In this document: in pieces, positions 8,085 to 21,091 of the stretch
Position numbering within the stretch: the first letter of the stretch is position 1
Layout: each line of letters opens with the position of its first letter
Assembly (NCBI GenBank): GCA_003526765.1
Contig: DPXZ01000102.1
Coordinates: 1 to 21,091 of the forward strand
DNA length: 21,091 nt
Reading direction: 5' to 3'
Source of the DNA: Fervidobacterium sp.
Lineage (GTDB): Bacteria; Thermotogota; Thermotogae; Thermotogales; Fervidobacteriaceae
Made by a program: the position numbers and the translations under genes
Notes under the pieces: generated by a model
The model's database searches: none
What the model saw: the letters and a program-made list of their open reading frames with translations, nothing else
What the model was told of the DNA's origin: nothing

Positions 8085-9533
8085 ATGGCTACAGGCGGAT
8101 TGAAGGGTATGGTTTACCACCAAGCAGGTAAATTGGTGGCAAATGTTGTCAGGAAGGCAGATACAGATACATTCTCAAAGCTCTTGTATACCGTAAGTGC
8201 GGTGAGCAAAGAACCAGCAAAGAGCGGACTTAAAAAACTTGGCCTTATGGCTCAAGAAGGCCATCCAATGATCAAGAAGTGGATGGATGTATTCCAAAAG
8301 GCATCTCCAAAAGCAGTTGAAAAGATAATCAACAACCTCATCATAAATGAATTTGCGATTGGTGAACCGATGAGGCAGAAGATGATGCACGAGTACCAAG
8401 TCGTCCTTCCAAAACTCGGTGTTATTAGTCCAACTTATGCATGTAACCTCAATTGTATCGGATGTTATGCTGGATTGTATGGAAGAAAGTATGAACTGAC
8501 AAAAGATGAGGTTAGAAGTGTTCTCAAGCAAGGAGAAGAACTTGGAATATACTTCTGGATCATCACTGGTGGAGAGCCATTCTACTGGCCGTACATAATG
8601 GATATATTCGAAGAGTTCAACAATCACTATTTCATGGTCTACTCAAACGGTATACTAATAACTGAAGAAAAGGCTAAAAAGCTTGCAGAACTTGGAAATG
8701 TCACACTTTCTATATCGGTTGAGGGCTTTGAAGCAGAAACAGACTGGAGAAGAGGACACGGCGTATTTAAGTCGGTTTTGAATACGTGGGAAAGGCTGAG
8801 AAGATACGGTGTACCATTTGGTGCAAGTATAACTGCAACGCGTGTTAACCACGAAATTTTAATGAAAGACGAATTTTGGAATTTCTTGGAAGAGAATGGG
8901 GTAATATATGCATGGGTCTTCCAATTCATGCCTGTTGGTCAGGATCCAATGATGGATTTGGTCCCCACTCCGCAACAAAGGTATGAAAGGTTCTTCAAAA
9001 CTGATGAAATGAGACTTAGCGGGCGATTTGCATTCGTTGCAGACTTCTGGAATCACGGGTTCTTGACTCACGGATGCCTATCTGCGGGTGCTAAGTACTT
9101 CCATGTCAACGCAAAAGGTTACGTTGAGCCATGTGTTTTCCAACAATTTGCAACCGACAGTATAAGAGAAAAGAGCCTAATAGAGATATTTAAGTCGCCG
9201 TTCTTTGAAGCATACAAGAGGGCAATACCTTTCTCAAACAATCTATTCAGGCCTTGTCCAATCATAGATAATCCAAAGGTGTTCAGAGCAATGGTTAAGA
9301 ATTTCAACGCTATACCACAGCATGAAGGTTGTGAGAAGACTATTACAGAACTGGCTCCAGAACTAGATAAACTAGCCGATGAATGGAAAGAATATGCAGA
9401 TAAACTTTGGTATGAATACGGATATGTTGAAAGATACCCAGTTAACAGAGGCCTGTACAACTACGAAACAAGGATGAAGAGATACGCAAACAAAGAAGAA
9501 GCGTTGAAAGTTGACAAAAAGTTGAACGTCTGA
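8085..9533 (+). CDS. Radical SAM/SPASM-like enzyme of the clostridial-Thermotogae type
   Basis: A 482-residue protein. Residues 1-110 form a mostly helical N-terminal region. The radical SAM core begins with CNLNCIGC (Cys 120, 124, 127) and has GGEP at 162-165 for SAM binding. The C-terminal part has further cysteines (Cys331, 350, 391, 416) in contexts such as HGCLSAG, GYVEPCVF and RPCP, suggesting an auxiliary iron-sulfur cluster as in SPASM-type proteins. I recognise the overall pattern (ISVEGFEAETDWRRG, FMPVGQDP, FRPCPIIDNP) from a radical SAM family common in clostridia whose function I cannot state with certainty. A role in making membrane-spanning lipids is one hypothesis. It starts behind a very strong ribosome binding site and is followed by genes for a TetR regulator and an MFS transporter. 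Confidence 0.85.
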   Translation: MATGGLKGMVYHQAGKLVANVVRKADTDTFSKLLYTVSAVSKEPAKSGLKKLGLMAQEGHPMIKKWMDVFQKASPKAVEKIINNLIINEFAIGEPMRQKMMHEYQVVLPKLGVISPTYACNLNCIGCYAGLYGRKYELTKDEVRSVLKQGEELGIYFWIITGGEPFYWPYIMDIFEEFNNHYFMVYSNGILITEEKAKKLAELGNVTLSISVEGFEAETDWRRGHGVFKSVLNTWERLRRYGVPFGASITATRVNHEILMKDEFWNFLEENGVIYAWVFQFMPVGQDPMMDLVPTPQQRYERFFKTDEMRLSGRFAFVADFWNHGFLTHGCLSAGAKYFHVNAKGYVEPCVFQQFATDSIREKSLIEIFKSPFFEAYKRAIPFSNNLFRPCPIIDNPKVFRAMVKNFNAIPQHEGCEKTITELAPELDKLADEWKEYADKLWYEYGYVERYPVNRGLYNYETRMKRYANKEEALKVDKKLNV

Positions 9534-12177: not shown

Positions 12178-13992
12178 TTATATTTTCACGTCTTTGAAAT
12201 TCTCTTGGATTACGTTTAGCAGATTTATCGTCTGACGCACGTTTCCAAAGACTGTGTTAAGCTCATCTAAGAACCTCTGAATTGAAGCACTTATTTCCTC
12301 AGCAGTAGCCGAGCTTTCTTCAGATATTGCAAGTAGATTCTGTATACTTGTAGTTATATTCTCAAGTTTCTCCGTTTCGTTGTTCAGATTATCGATGAGT
12401 GTGTTGAGCTGCCCTGTAATTTGCGATATAATCTCACTTGACTCTTTACTATCATCTGCACTGCTTGATAGCTCAACTGACTGTTTCTTTAGCTCTTCGT
12501 AACCTTTTAAGACCCCTTTGCTCAATTCTGCAATACCATTCGAGACGCTCGAGAGAAATTGCGATATCTTGTTTGCCGACTCTTTACTTTCCTCCGCGAG
12601 CTTTCTTATCTCATCGGCAACTACTGCAAATCCTCTTCCAGCTTCTCCACTACGGGCAGCTTCTATTGCAGCATTCAAAGCAAGTAGATTTGTCTGTTCT
12701 GCAATACTCATGACCGTATTTGCAATATCTTGTATCGCACTTGCCTGGCTCCTCAACTCTTGACTCTCTTTTGCTATGGCCTCAAAATCATTACTCATTA
12801 CTCTCATACCATTTGCTGAGTTTTCTACGCTTTTTGCGGCATTTCTGATCTTGTCTACAGCGCTGTTCAAATTCTGAATAATCTGATTTTGTTCGTTTAT
12901 CGTTCTTGAAATTGTGTCAACATTTGAAGAGACCGCTTCAGAAATTCTTTCGGCATCGTTGCTAATTTGAACAGCCGTATCTGCAATTTGTGTTGATAAT
13001 TCTTTCATTGTATCTATCTGCTCTTGCACTGTATTTGCAGATTCCAAGGTCTTGTTGGAAAAATTCATTAGTTCCTCAGTATCGCCCTGAAGTCCTATCA
13101 AAAATTCTCTAAGTGACATTGTCGCTTCAGCATTTCCCTCCGAAATTTCCTCAAAGTCTTTCTCACCTGATATTATCACAAGATTGTTGAAATCCTTAGT
13201 CTTGTAGATGGAGGATATTTCTTTCGTTGCATTAAGGCCTTTCTTGAAGTCTGATAAGCCTAAAAACATTCCCACAAAGGTAACCGCAGCAATAAGCAGT
13301 GAGCTAAACATAGGACTTAAGAAGCTTGTAAAAACAAGCGACAGAACAAATACAATAACGGGAAAGATAACAGTATATGTTGTCATGATTTTCCTAACTA
13401 ATCCAAGGGAAAGTGTTTTGAAAAGGCTTAGAGTGACCTTTTTCCCATAAGGTTTTGTTGCAACGATTCTTACTTCAAGGAAAGAACCGCTACCAGTCGT
13501 ACCTTGGTTTAGTATTTCAACCTTCATTGGATCTTTGAAAAAGTCGGCTGAACCTCTGAGTAGTCCCAAAAAGTAACTTCTAAAATCTCTGTTCGATTCA
13601 TAACGTACAACTGCCGTCTTTTCATCAACGTAATTGTATATGATTCTCGGTGGTTTTGCACCTTTTATACGTCTTGTAAGGGACCTGTGGACCATGTCCA
13701 TGGCGCTCAAAAACGACAAGACTCCTTCTTTTCTAAAATAGCTTGGATAGAAAGAGTGGAAAGACCAAATGTTTTGATAACCTGTCTCCTCCCAAAGTTC
13801 TTCGTAAGTTTTTCCAACCTTTTGTGCCAATGATTTACTGACCCTTACGACTAAATCATCTGGGACATCGTTCGTTGGAATTATCAACTTACTTGTCTCG
13901 ATGTTAAACTCGGAGACCAAAGAGTCTACAACTTTGTCCCCGTACAATTTCTTCCATGTCGTTAGCCATATGTTCATAACAAAACTCTTCAT
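12178..13992 (-). CDS. H-NOX (haem NO/O2-binding) methyl-accepting chemotaxis protein
   Basis: A 604-residue chemoreceptor. Residues 1-180 are an H-NOX domain: the proximal haem ligand His102 in MDMVHRSLT, Pro115 in KPPR, and the YxSxR propionate-binding motif Tyr131-Ser133-Arg135. All sit at the same numbers as in Tar4H of Caldanaerobacter (Thermoanaerobacter) tengcongensis. Trp9, Asn74 and Tyr140, the distal residues that let that protein hold O2, are also present. Two hydrophobic segments follow (about 203-224 and 226-247), so the haem and signalling domains both face the cytosol. There is no evident HAMP domain. A long coiled coil with the receptor tip [32 protein letters not shown] at about 432-463 contacts CheA/CheW. 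ATG at 13992 has GAGAGGAGGAATG upstream. The protein likely steers swimming by O2 or NO; ligand choice is inference. Confidence 0.93.
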
Positions 13993-14091: not shown

Positions 14092-15024
14092 TCACTCTTC
14101 AGTATCGTTCAAGTTTTCTATTTTCTTTGATTCTTTCATTTTGTACATCAACATGTCGACAGTTTTCAGTGTTTCAGAAAATGACTTTTCAAACGTCAAT
14201 ATGCCATATGAAAAGGTTGGGTGAAGTGGATGATTAGTCATAAATGTCAAGCAAAGTCTTTCGAAGATTTCGTTTGCCTTATCCTTTGTGCAATCCTTCA
14301 AGATAACGAGGAACTCGTCTCCTCCCATTCGAATAATCAAATCAGTGCTTCTCAAATGACTCTTTATGTTCTCAACAAGTAACTTCAGGACTTCATCTCC
14401 AACGTCATGTCCGTAGATGTCGTTTATGCCTTTCAAGTTGTCCAAGTCGATGTATACAAAAGTATCGTTCTTGCTAGTTGTTATTTCGGGAAGTACTCCT
14501 CTGTTGTATGCACCTGTCAGCTCGTCAGTAATACCCTTCATGTGTGTTAAAGTAACTTTCACAAACATCTCTTTGTACTCAAACACTACAGAGTAAGCAA
14601 GCCCCGCAAAAATCGCAGCAATACCATAATTAGACATTAGTTTCAGATTGAACGAAAACATCACGACAACTGCATCGTAAACCACACATGTTGCAAAGAA
14701 TGTTATGAAACCAAACAGTATATTTGAGTAAATCTTAAATGACCTCAAAAGGATATAAATGGCGGTAAGTGACAGAATCAGAGAAGCAACGTTTGTGAAA
14801 GTCTTGAATACGTAGGAAGTCGTAGGAATTGTAAGAGAAAGCCCCGTAATAAAGGTTAACAATGCGAAAATCTTGTCCGAGTTGGTTTTCCTTTCGAAAT
14901 ATATATTTGAAAATCCTGTGATGAATGCCGATAAGCCAAAATACGCAGAACTAAGAAATATCTTCCTGAATAAAAGGAAGGTGGTTTGAGAACCCAAACT
15001 TGGGAATCCAACTAAATCGAACAT
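14092..15024 (-). CDS. Diguanylate cyclase (GGDEF) part of a frameshift-split membrane sensor
   Basis: The 310-residue reading has about six hydrophobic helices (residues 18-165), then a GGDEF domain with DELTGAYNR, the catalytic GGDEF in RMGGDEFLVIL, and RSTD just upstream as the RxxD inhibitory site. It should make cyclic di-GMP with product inhibition. ATG at 15024 has no ribosome binding site, and the frame stays open upstream into the preceding reading, giving AYLYLGLGSFLGSIW before it. Together with the segment at 15048-15680, which ends just upstream in the other frame, this suggests one gene of 529 residues (14092-15680) broken by one base. The shift lies in or near an A6 run (15074-15079 or 15091-15096). 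Biochemical call strong; whether the gene is intact in the cell is open. Confidence 0.8.
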   Translation of the reverse strand: MFDLVGFPSLGSQTTFLLFRKIFLSSAYFGLSAFITGFSNIYFERKTNSDKIFALLTFITGLSLTIPTTSYVFKTFTNVASLILSLTAIYILLRSFKIYSNILFGFITFFATCVVYDAVVVMFSFNLKLMSNYGIAAIFAGLAYSVVFEYKEMFVKVTLTHMKGITDELTGAYNRGVLPEITTSKNDTFVYIDLDNLKGINDIYGHDVGDEVLKLLVENIKSHLRSTDLIIRMGGDEFLVILKDCTKDKANEIFERLCLTFMTNHPLHPTFSYGILTFEKSFSETLKTVDMLMYKMKESKKIENLNDTEE

Positions 15025-15047
15025 CCAGATGCTGCCAAGAAAACTGC

Positions 15048-15680
15048 CTAATCCAAGATATAGGTATGCTCTCTTTTTTCTGGTATCAGATTTTTTGAAA
15101 TCGCATATAAAATTATGGAAATTGTCAGTGCCAACCCTATGGTGATGTGGAGTAACGAATTTGTCAAGAAAAGGAGAACGTTGTATTTGGGCAACTGAGA
15201 ACTATCGATGATGTACGCACCAAAATCTATCCCAATTTCATAAATACCACTGATTTCTAATGTAATGTTACTAAAACTCTCAGGAAGCTCAAAAATAACC
15301 GGCTGATACCAAAAATGACCAGTCCTTTTGTCTTTAAATCCTAAGGTACCTATTTGTTTTCCATCGATGTAAACTGCAAAGTAAGAGTTATCTATTTGTG
15401 GAATATAAAGATACTTTGTGGAACCTTCTTTTAGAGAAAGTAAGTGCCCTGCATCCACACTAGATGATATAATTATTGTTGCTGGTTTTTTAGTTACTTT
15501 GTAGAACTCCGAACCAAGATTGTTTCTCCCGATAGCATTTTCCAGATCGCTAACAACTGTCCAAGACTGTATCTTGTATCCGTTTGGAGTCATGGAATAC
15601 TTGAACAACCCAAATATCAACAGAAATATCAAGATTGCAAAACAGAATGATTTGATGTAGTATTTTATATAACCCATCAT
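15048..15680 (-). CDS. Membrane-anchored sensor part (N-terminal half) of the split GGDEF protein
   Basis: A 210-residue reading. One transmembrane helix (about 12-28) is followed by an extracytoplasmic domain of about 140 residues rich in beta strands (YFAVYIDGKQIGTLGF, then FELPES..NITLEISGIYEIGI). This resembles the jelly-roll sensor domains of 7TMR-DISM signalling proteins that often bind carbohydrate-like ligands. A second hydrophobic helix (about 170-195) follows, and the reading then stops after EKREHTYILD. Such a domain is normally followed by a 7-helix block and an output domain, which is exactly what the next frame encodes. Start ATG 15680 (or 15677), with GAGGACGTGA upstream. I recognise the architecture, not a named gene. 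Confidence 0.7.
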   Translation of the reverse strand: MMGYIKYYIKSFCFAILIFLLIFGLFKYSMTPNGYKIQSWTVVSDLENAIGRNNLGSEFYKVTKKPATIIISSSVDAGHLLSLKEGSTKYLYIPQIDNSYFAVYIDGKQIGTLGFKDKRTGHFWYQPVIFELPESFSNITLEISGIYEIGIDFGAYIIDSSQLPKYNVLLFLTNSLLHITIGLALTISIILYAISKNLIPEKREHTYILD

Positions 15681-18801: not shown

Positions 18802-21091
18802 TCAGCTGCACTTACTCCATCCGCATTTCTTACAACTCGTGCACCCTTCTTGTTTTAGTATACTGTTCTTCGATAGGCATGATGGGCAGTAGGTGTTACC
18901 ATCACTATCTACGTAGAATCCTTCGCTCCATTGTAATCCATTGGCTGTAACAAATTTCTCTATCTCTTCTGCACTTTTCACCGTTCCATCTATTACGAAT
19001 GTGTCGTAATTTTCAGACGTAGTTTCGCCCCAAAGTTCTACAAAATCATCTACTGCGCTTTTAATCTCTTTAGCTAAAGTTGGTGTATAAGTGCCCTTTA
19101 CCTTCCTCAGTTGCTCCAAAATCTCATCTGCCGAAACGCCAGCTCTAAGTGCTATAGAAGATAACCTTCCGATAGCCTCTGCCAGTTCTGTTCCATTTGA
19201 CAAGAAGATTTCAACCGCCTCGCCGTTGTCGTCAAAACTCACGGTAATGTATGTTGTACCAGTCTCAGTTTTTAATTTTCTAGTTACACTACGCAGTGTA
19301 TCTTTTCTAGGTTTTGGTCTCAACTTGTGTTTCTCATCGAGTACAAAAAACTGTACCTTCGGTGCATCTTTCGTTTTCAGCGTTTTTGTAGATGTTAAGA
19401 CTTGAGTTTGCAATGAGCCATCTCTGTAAATTGTAAGTCCCCTGATGTTGAGCTTCATAGCTTCGAGATATATGTTCAGTACGTCTTCTTCCGTTGCAGA
19501 ATTGGACATGTTTATTGTTTTTGATATGTTGTTGTCTACATATCTTTGGAATGCATCTTGCATCAATAAATGATCCATAGGTGAGATATCCATGGCGGTC
19601 ACAAATACTTTTCTTACATTTTCGGGTATCTCTTCAAAATTCTTCACACTACCAATCTCAACAAGCTTATCTTTTATCTTCTCGAGCACTGTTGGTTCAA
19701 GTTTTGATTCAAGGATTTTATTTATGTAAAAGAGTGCTTCTTTTGTCCCGTCATGTTTGTTCATATATCTAACGTAAGCAATCAAGAAATTTGGCTCAAG
19801 TCCGCTACTCGTATCAGCTATATTTGAAATAGAGCCTGTTGGTGCAATCGTTAGAACCGCGACATTTCTCTTACCATTCTTAGATTCCTTCATAACTTGC
19901 TTCAATTCTTCATCAAATCTACTCATACCCATTGCAAATGGGGCGAAATCTTCCTCCCTTGCATACCTGCTCTTCTCAAATAGTGGGAAACTACCCTTCT
20001 CATGTGCAAGCTTATTTGACTCATCGTGACCATGCAGCGCCATGAATGCAGTCATATCTGCTGCAAACTGACGCCCTTCTAGAGAGTCATACTGGATATC
20101 AAGTTGATAAAGCAAGTCCGCGAAACCCATGATACCCAAACCAATTCTCCTGCTATTCCTAACCGCTTCGGTTATTTTATCGAGTGGGAATACATTGACA
20201 TCTATGATGTTATCTAAGAATCTCACCGCCAACCTAGTAGCTTGAGCAAATGCTTCCCAATTGAATTCACCATTCATGTAAAACTTTGCAACATCTATAG
20301 AACCCAAGTTACATGCCTCGTATGGTGCAAGCCCAATCTCGCCACATGGGTTGGTACTTTCAATCTTCATCTCAGGGTACATTGCATAGTACTTGTTCAT
20401 CTCACCAAGGAAAGCAAGTCCCGGGTCTCCGGTCTTCCAAGCATTCCTTGCCATTCTATTGATTATCTCTCTCACCTTTATACGTCTCTCTCCAACATAC
20501 TTTGGATGATGAAGCTCTATCTCACCATCTTCCATGTAGAGCTTCAACAATTCTTGCCTATCCATTGGAATTCCAACAGATATGTTGAAGAATTTCAAGA
20601 CCTTTTCACCATCGTTGCCTTCCTTTGCGGTGATGAATTCTTCAATATCCGGATGGTCTATGTTCAATATTCCCATTAACGCTCCACGCCTTCTATAACC
20701 TTGTTCAACAACACCTACTGCTGAATTAAAGACATGCATAAAAGAAACAGGACCACTTGCTTGGCCATGAGTCCCAGCGACAAAGCTCCCCTTTGGTCTA
20801 AGCCTTGAAAAGTTGCTACCTATTCCGCCGCCGGCCTTTGTTATCAGTGCATACTCTTTCACAGAATTAAAAATGCTCTCTATGCTGTCTTCAATAGGAA
20901 CAACAAAACAAGCTGATAACATGTGGAGGTGATTTCTGGAATTGTATATCTCCCAATAATCTTCAAGATTCATCTCATCGATAGGCTTCCAGAGTAATTC
21001 GTGCCTAACCCCCATACCTGCATTGAAGAGCGTTGGACTATTTGGGATGAAGATTCTAGAGAGCATAAAATTGTAGAAAGTGTCCTCCCAG
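18802..21091 (-). CDS. nrdJ: Adenosylcobalamin-dependent (class II) ribonucleoside-diphosphate reductase, 5' end outside the window
   Basis: Class II reductase makes deoxyribonucleotides without O2 or a second subunit, using adenosylcobalamin to form a thiyl radical. The frame is open to the right edge, giving 762 residues with the N-terminus missing. Counting from the first Met at 21066, Asn239, Cys241 and Glu243 in NPCGE are the radical site; Cys53 (LSACF) and Cys252 (EACNLG) are the redox pair. Each is 81 less than the numbers I recall for T. maritima NrdJ (320, 322, 324, 134, 333), so about 70 residues are missing. Residues 595-690 form a TSCPD-like region, and the C-terminus has CPSC and CTSCKKCGWSKC, cysteines likely used for zinc binding or thioredoxin-type reduction. 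The stop is followed by a strong terminator. Confidence 0.96.
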   Translation of the reverse strand, partial: WEDTFYNFMLSRIFIPNSPTLFNAGMGVRHELLWKPIDEMNLEDYWEIYNSRNHLHMLSACFVVPIEDSIESIFNSVKEYALITKAGGGIGSNFSRLRPKGSFVAGTHGQASGPVSFMHVFNSAVGVVEQGYRRRGALMGILNIDHPDIEEFITAKEGNDGEKVLKFFNISVGIPMDRQELLKLYMEDGEIELHHPKYVGERRIKVREIINRMARNAWKTGDPGLAFLGEMNKYYAMYPEMKIESTNPCGEIGLAPYEACNLGSIDVAKFYMNGEFNWEAFAQATRLAVRFLDNIIDVNVFPLDKITEAVRNSRRIGLGIMGFADLLYQLDIQYDSLEGRQFAADMTAFMALHGHDESNKLAHEKGSFPLFEKSRYAREEDFAPFAMGMSRFDEELKQVMKESKNGKRNVAVLTIAPTGSISNIADTSSGLEPNFLIAYVRYMNKHDGTKEALFYINKILESKLEPTVLEKIKDKLVEIGSVKNFEEIPENVRKVFVTAMDISPMDHLLMQDAFQRYVDNNISKTINMSNSATEEDVLNIYLEAMKLNIRGLTIYRDGSLQTQVLTSTKTLKTKDAPKVQFFVLDEKHKLRPKPRKDTLRSVTRKLKTETGTTYITVSFDDNGEAVEIFLSNGTELAEAIGRLSSIALRAGVSADEILEQLRKVKGTYTPTLAKEIKSAVDDFVELWGETTSENYDTFVIDGTVKSAEEIEKFVTANGLQWSEGFYVDSDGNTYCPSCLSKNSILKQEGCTSCKKCGWSKCS

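Follow-up and report, generated by a model that had tools for sequence, protein, structure and literature searches.

The gene at positions 12178–13992 on the minus strand of a 21,091-nucleotide stretch of Fervidobacterium DNA (assembly GCA_003526765.1, contig DPXZ01000102.1; the whole stretch is called the window below) probably encodes a Tar4H-type chemoreceptor that senses oxygen through haem. The open reading frame (ORF) is intact, starts with ATG and specifies 604 residues; it was assigned as an H-NOX domain fused to a methyl-accepting chemotaxis protein (MCP) from the ORF, Pfam and phmmer. The domain order, an in-register fold, a complete O2-type pocket and the invariance of this pocket in the phylum Thermotogota were established. 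A preliminary description, which did not give the strand, had proposed an O2 receptor that drives aerotaxis, probably avoidance, and that belongs to a class known from very few lineages. Domain order, fold and invariant pocket uphold the receptor, O2 binding and a response to oxygen, probably avoidance, are predicted, and the claim of rarity is rejected below.

In the proposed mechanism, ferrous haem b would be carried on His102 and O2 would bind on the distal haem face, held by a hydrogen-bond network of Tyr140, Trp9 and Asn74. An O2-induced domain shift would be relayed by way of a membrane hairpin to the coiled coil of the MCP, the kinase activity of the CheA array would change and the cell would move relative to oxygen, probably away from it. 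The haem would be acquired from the surroundings, as no complete haem route was found in the phylum.

Domain structure and haem pocket

The HNOB profile (PF07700) matched residues 2–159 with 131.2 bits (cut-off 25.5; profile positions 1–162 of 163) and MCPsignal matched residues 389–553 with 110.8 bits (cut-off 34.6; Pfam). The same Pfam search of the 604-residue protein gave no HAMP match. The haem domain (residues 1–181; 13450–13992, minus strand) contains no cysteine. It was aligned by phmmer to the Tar4H domain (PDB entry 1u4h) over residues 1–181 without gaps (E 3.6e-39), and residue numbers therefore correspond one to one. W9, N74, F78, H102, P115, Y131, S133, R135 and Y140 are identical in the two proteins. 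The pocket residues that the preliminary description had placed at Tar4H numbers (His102, Pro115, Tyr131/Ser133/Arg135, Trp9, Asn74 and Tyr140) are thus confirmed by the alignment it had proposed, and the pocket model it had also proposed gave the in-register fold of a Tar4H-type pocket.

The proximal H102 together with the YxSxR motif (Y131, S133, R135) identifies the domain as H-NOX, and the distal Tyr140 with Trp9 and Asn74 places it in the O2-binding Tar4H-type class. Fusion to an MCP by way of a hydrophobic two-helix stretch, presumably inserted in the membrane, is a further Tar4H-type trait. On the minus strand, the codons of Trp9 (13966–13968), Asn74 (13771–13773), the proximal haem ligand His102 (13687–13689) and Tyr140, the distal O2 hydrogen-bond donor in Tar4H (13573–13575), were read on the sequence; the coordinates of Pro115 (13648–13650) and of the YxSxR haem-propionate motif at residues 131–135 (13588–13602) were obtained by arithmetic.

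A hydrophobic helical hairpin at residues ~202–247 (13252–13389, minus strand) was located by reading the sequence and from the predicted model, in which helices run over residues 202–224 and 227–264. We infer that it forms two membrane spans joined by a short turn, with both ends cytoplasmic. The MCP signalling coiled coil follows at residues ~278–600, with its tip near residue 448 (12193–13161, minus strand). The Thermotoga maritima receptor 2ch7 aligned with the model over its full length (309/309 residues, rmsd 2.6), and the conserved signalling tip and coiled-coil fold identify the protein as an MCP. The arm from the tip to the C-terminus (449–600) measures ~21.7 heptads, which fits the expectation for the 44-heptad class to which we take the receptor to belong.

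Tar4H, from Caldanaerobacter subterraneus subsp. tengcongensis (PDB entries 1u4h, 1u55 and 1xbn), is likewise an MCP fusion (PMC9814294) from a thermophilic anaerobe. It shares with the receptor the whole distal pocket, the proximal motif and the numbering; 72 of the 181 domain residues are identical, the receptor having Val for Ile at position 5 and Ser for Asp at position 139. O2 binding has been measured for Tar4H, whereas the receptor described here is known from sequence. The distal Tyr is described as the mark of the O2-binding H-NOX group and as requisite for O2 binding (PMC8738867). NO-selective H-NOX proteins of facultative anaerobes and cyanobacteria (PDB entries 4u99 and 2o09) are 15–18% identical to the receptor domain and, unlike this MCP fusion, stand alone, with kinases or cyclases as partners.

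The source metagenome-assembled genome (MAG) comprises 1.17 Mb and is 60.6% complete. The receptor is 98% identical to its counterpart in Fervidobacterium sp. UBA5837, in agreement with the earlier assignment to Thermotogae. Members of Fervidobacterium are fermentative anaerobes.

Conservation in Thermotogota and beyond

A search for PF07700 in 103 Thermotogota genomes gave 47 genes in 46 of them, representing 18 of 38 genera; of the 82 good genomes, 42 carry the domain. The MCP type accounts for 46 of these, which lie together on one side of a branch with 100/98 support; Tar4H falls outside this clade. The tree was calculated from 181 columns and sampled 35 of the 128 proteins in the clostridial set (numbered P0033 upwards). 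An uninterrupted frame of at least 603 residues is present in 44 of the 46 MCP-type genes; in genome G054 the contig stops within the gene, so that any MCP part would lie beyond it, and the G041 gene (L049) has an interrupted frame.

Among the 181 columns, 21 are invariant in the 46 Thermotogota rows (44 distinct) and 20 of these equal Tar4H. All nine pocket residues fall within the 21 (hypergeometric 6e-10, ignoring kinship and taking the nine as chosen beforehand), Tyr140 being kept in 46/46 rows. It is hardly credible, then, that most of these anaerobes carry only a vestigial sensor: no haem synthesis was found, the frame in G041 is interrupted and the domain is absent from 57/103 genomes, but the pocket is invariant at 9/9 residues against a mean majority fraction of 0.60 per column, and one of the two exceptions to the 44/46 long frames is a contig end.

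Two further Thermotogota genes were noted. G004 carries a divergent short H-NOX (L069; G004:C269, 3537–4058, minus strand) with a 180-residue open frame and no MCP fusion. It has Phe at position 140 and lacks Trp9, and is the sole one of the 47 genes without the O2-type triad; its alignment is unsure, two alignments disagreeing at positions 74 and 78. G046 has a second H-NOX paralogue (L050; G046:C4) on a long branch; it keeps the full distal triad, and its residues 5 and 144 are both Met.

A second protein search, started from a Tepidibacter member, gave 1441 matches, of which the best 120 were examined. N74, H102, Y131, S133, R135 and Y140 are invariant in all 160 H-NOX proteins retrieved, and W9 is present in 156, F78 in 151 and P115 in 158; both searches were seeded with Tyr-bearing queries and sample part of the H-NOX family. 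The clostridial H-NOX/MCP receptors (Tepidibacter, Caloramator, Clostridium) have the same domain order, mostly ~600 residues and the Tyr140 pocket, at ~26–30% full-length identity to the receptor; in the tree, 32 of 35 form a separate branch (99/90) and P0039–P0041, with Met at position 9, lie elsewhere. With 46/103 genomes of the phylum carrying the domain and 1441 matches from the Tepidibacter query, rarity of the receptor class is ruled out. Within its phylum the receptor is nothing unusual; it belongs to a known kind.

Chemotaxis machinery and haem supply

CheA (PF02895) was found in 79/103 Thermotogota genomes, namely 45/46 with any H-NOX and 34/57 without (Fisher 2.6e-6, ignoring kinship). 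The MAG of the receptor itself, ~61% complete, gave no PF02895 match; CheA is present in each of the other 44 genomes that have an H-NOX of the MCP type, including G072, which encodes a 98% identical protein.

Haem routes were examined by profile searches, in which some genomes are incomplete. Ferrochelatase (PF00762) was found in 0/103 Thermotogota genomes (controls 8/14, with Bacillus subtilis positive, so that the coproporphyrin type is covered). AhbD, the haem b synthase (TIGR04545), reached its strict 500-bit cut-off in 0/103 genomes (controls 1/14), and haem from the siroheme route was rejected on this basis. Matches below the cut-off occur in 102/103 genomes and represent radical SAM kin. 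The best of these (355 bits) lies beside an ALAD gene in G015, which has no H-NOX, and a diverged AhbD is conceivable there; lower matches, for which a diverged AhbD is also possible, were obtained in G004, the genome of the stand-alone H-NOX (221 bits), in G053, without H-NOX (197 bits), and in G040, with an MCP-type H-NOX and no ALAD (190 bits). ALAD, an early common step, was found in 4/103 genomes, three of them with H-NOX (G078–G080; controls 11/14). To our knowledge, all routes to haem b end in ferrochelatase or AhbD.

Since the searched genomes of the phylum yielded no complete haem route, we infer that haem is taken up from the surroundings; a diverged or novel enzyme, a novel importer or missed genes are possible explanations as well. 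A dedicated IsdE-type importer was rejected as a general answer, the model exceeding its cut-off in 2/103 genomes only (G063 and G074, both with H-NOX); G085, also with H-NOX, gave a strong match of 201 bits that stays under the cut-off, and some match to this wide family of binding proteins is present in 98/103.

The missing haem genes (ferrochelatase and AhbD over its cut-off in 0/103 genomes, ALAD in three of the 46 with H-NOX) would suit a haem-free function, either as a redox sensor like the H-NOX of Vibrio cholerae or with another ligand. We consider this very unlikely. In Vibrio the mechanism depends on zinc bound at cysteines (PMC7108781), but the receptor domain has no Cys, and within the Tar4H columns 38/47 Thermotogota domains have none and 9/47 have one; Cys/zinc redox sensing of the V. 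cholerae type is thereby ruled out for this receptor. A haem-free role would also leave unexplained why none of the 46 rows departs from H102, Y131, S133, R135 or P115. The invariance of these haem-contact residues argues for the presence of haem in the working protein.

Three other haem-protein families were searched. Cytochrome bd exceeded the cut-off in 4/103 genomes, all lacking H-NOX (G066, which has H-NOX, gave a weak match under the threshold), protoglobin did so in 2/103, none with H-NOX, and Ni_hydr_CYTB in 0/103, four of its seven sub-threshold matches being in H-NOX genomes. G008–G011 (genus g20, family f8) have cytochrome bd yet no ferrochelatase in the profile searches, and G008 and G011 also have a protoglobin-like match just over the cut-off.

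Two other genes of the window touch on tetrapyrroles or AhbD. An adenosylcobalamin-dependent ribonucleotide reductase is encoded at 18802–21066 (minus strand; TIGR02504, 609.5 bits, cut-off 399.95). ALAD was found by profile search in 0/9 genomes of the genus, in which B12 is probably salvaged; with a B12-dependent reductase and no ALAD in this genus, and with cytochrome bd but no ferrochelatase in the four g20 genomes, tetrapyrrole salvage would not be strange. A radical SAM/SPASM protein at 8085–9533 (plus strand) is nearest to the AhbD/NirJ models, though it falls well short of the cut-offs of both (AhbD 81 of 500 bits). Its gene is adjoined by those of a TetR regulator and an MFS transporter, an order that recurs in relatives within the genus, and similar frames of ~490 residues were matched in many Thermotogota genomes.

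Gene neighbourhood and signal

The surroundings of the H-NOX genes were compared in all 46 genomes with five neighbour-protein probes, the flanks sometimes being limited by contig ends; neighbours of other kinds were inspected in one set of loci only. In 9/46 genomes (G035, G038, G046, G047, G048, G049, G050, G052 and G055; five genera of family f10) the H-NOX gene is directly followed on the same strand by rubrerythrin and, after it, superoxide reductase (SOR). The L063 representative was identified with PF02915 (78.5 bits, rubrerythrin) and PF01880 (108.1 bits, SOR), and the remaining neighbours are 61–75% identical to it. SOR is near universal (97/103 genomes), so its presence is uninformative and its position informative. 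The nine linkages may derive from one ancestral event.

Enzymes of cyclic di-GMP (c-di-GMP) lie upstream on the same strand in other genomes. A diguanylate cyclase was found in 8/46 (genera g1 and g2, including the window); it is the next gene in six, ORFs intervene in G068, and the match in G076 is partial and more distant. In 11/46 (families f2, f3 and f5) the upstream gene is of the HDOD/HD-GYP kind, separated by one gene in G057 and with a broken or short frame in G002 and G093; in 7/46 (genus g32) it is of the Cache/HD-GYP kind, with one intervening gene in six and a 0.66-kb gap in G044. The GYP and GGDEF motifs are kept in most intact neighbours of these kinds. Genomes carry ~10 HD-GYP domains in f2 and ~20 in g32; an HD-GYP gene just upstream would be expected by chance in ~1 genome in 100 (an estimate, with no control run), and through relatedness the cases reduce to a few events.

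These neighbours bear on the possibility that the protein is mainly an NO receptor, which would bind O2 in vitro and meet NO as the signal of its habitat. NO-type H-NOX proteins act with c-di-GMP enzymes (PMC8846402), here diguanylate cyclase in 8/46 genomes and HD-GYP in 18/46, not always adjacent, and NO is, like O2, a ligand of Tar4H (PMC9814294). The distal Tyr, however, requisite for O2 binding (PMC8738867), is invariant along with W9 and N74, and superoxide and peroxide defence genes stand directly downstream in nine genomes. On balance an NO receptor appears unlikely.

Several points nevertheless weigh against an oxygen receptor. The rubrerythrin/SOR linkage is confined to family f10, is absent beside the gene at 12178–13992 and is missing from 37/46 genomes (in G054 at least, the contig ends first), and H-NOX genes also lie near c-di-GMP enzymes, the usual partners of the NO type. 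Tar4H binds CO in addition to NO, and according to a 2021 paper its role still awaits demonstration in living cells (PMC9814294). The distal Tyr does not fix O2 affinity: according to a title cited in PMC8738867, the oxy intermediate that the H-NOX of Clostridium botulinum forms with O2 is less stable, and the clostridial SONO protein is described as a femtomolar NO sensor (PMC8846402). O2 binding by Thermotogota H-NOX is predicted from the pocket sequence. Lastly, haem synthesis was not found by the profile searches of the 103 genomes, and the receptor could therefore be partly apo in the cell.

The probable oxygen receptor is of interest for its conserved pocket without a detectable haem pathway and for the oxygen-defence linkage, which in one family points to oxygen. 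As haem proteins, O2-type H-NOX receptors from obligate anaerobes have been studied thoroughly. In the literature searched, no treatment of the haem supply of Thermotogota H-NOX (titles and starts of abstracts, most subscription papers being outside) and no report of either the linkage or a conserved pocket lacking a haem pathway (mainly titles and starts of abstracts) was found. It is conceivable, though less likely than not, that an entire anaerobe phylum keeps an intact O2 receptor whose cofactor it cannot make, and that oxygen taxis operates only where the haem of others is available; if so, the receptor would report on oxygen and, at the same time, on haem-making neighbours, most of them respiring. 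Its conservation in genera with named species (Fervidobacterium, Thermosipho) gives a handle on its role in the cell, and the missing pathway makes cofactor supply directly testable. The Thermotogota domains also provide new thermophilic scaffolds of the kind used in O2-binding studies.

The numbers obtained in promoter and terminator scans were about those expected by chance (12 against a mean of 10.7, and two against 2.3). In the window, the diguanylate cyclase gene upstream of the receptor (14092–15680, minus strand) is split into frames of 210 and 310 residues: the N-terminal part at 15048–15680 and, in another frame, the GGDEF part at 14092–15024, in which RMGGDEFLV is kept. The frameshift in the MAG may be real or may come from assembly; in G072 the counterpart (L034) is a single ORF of 529 residues.
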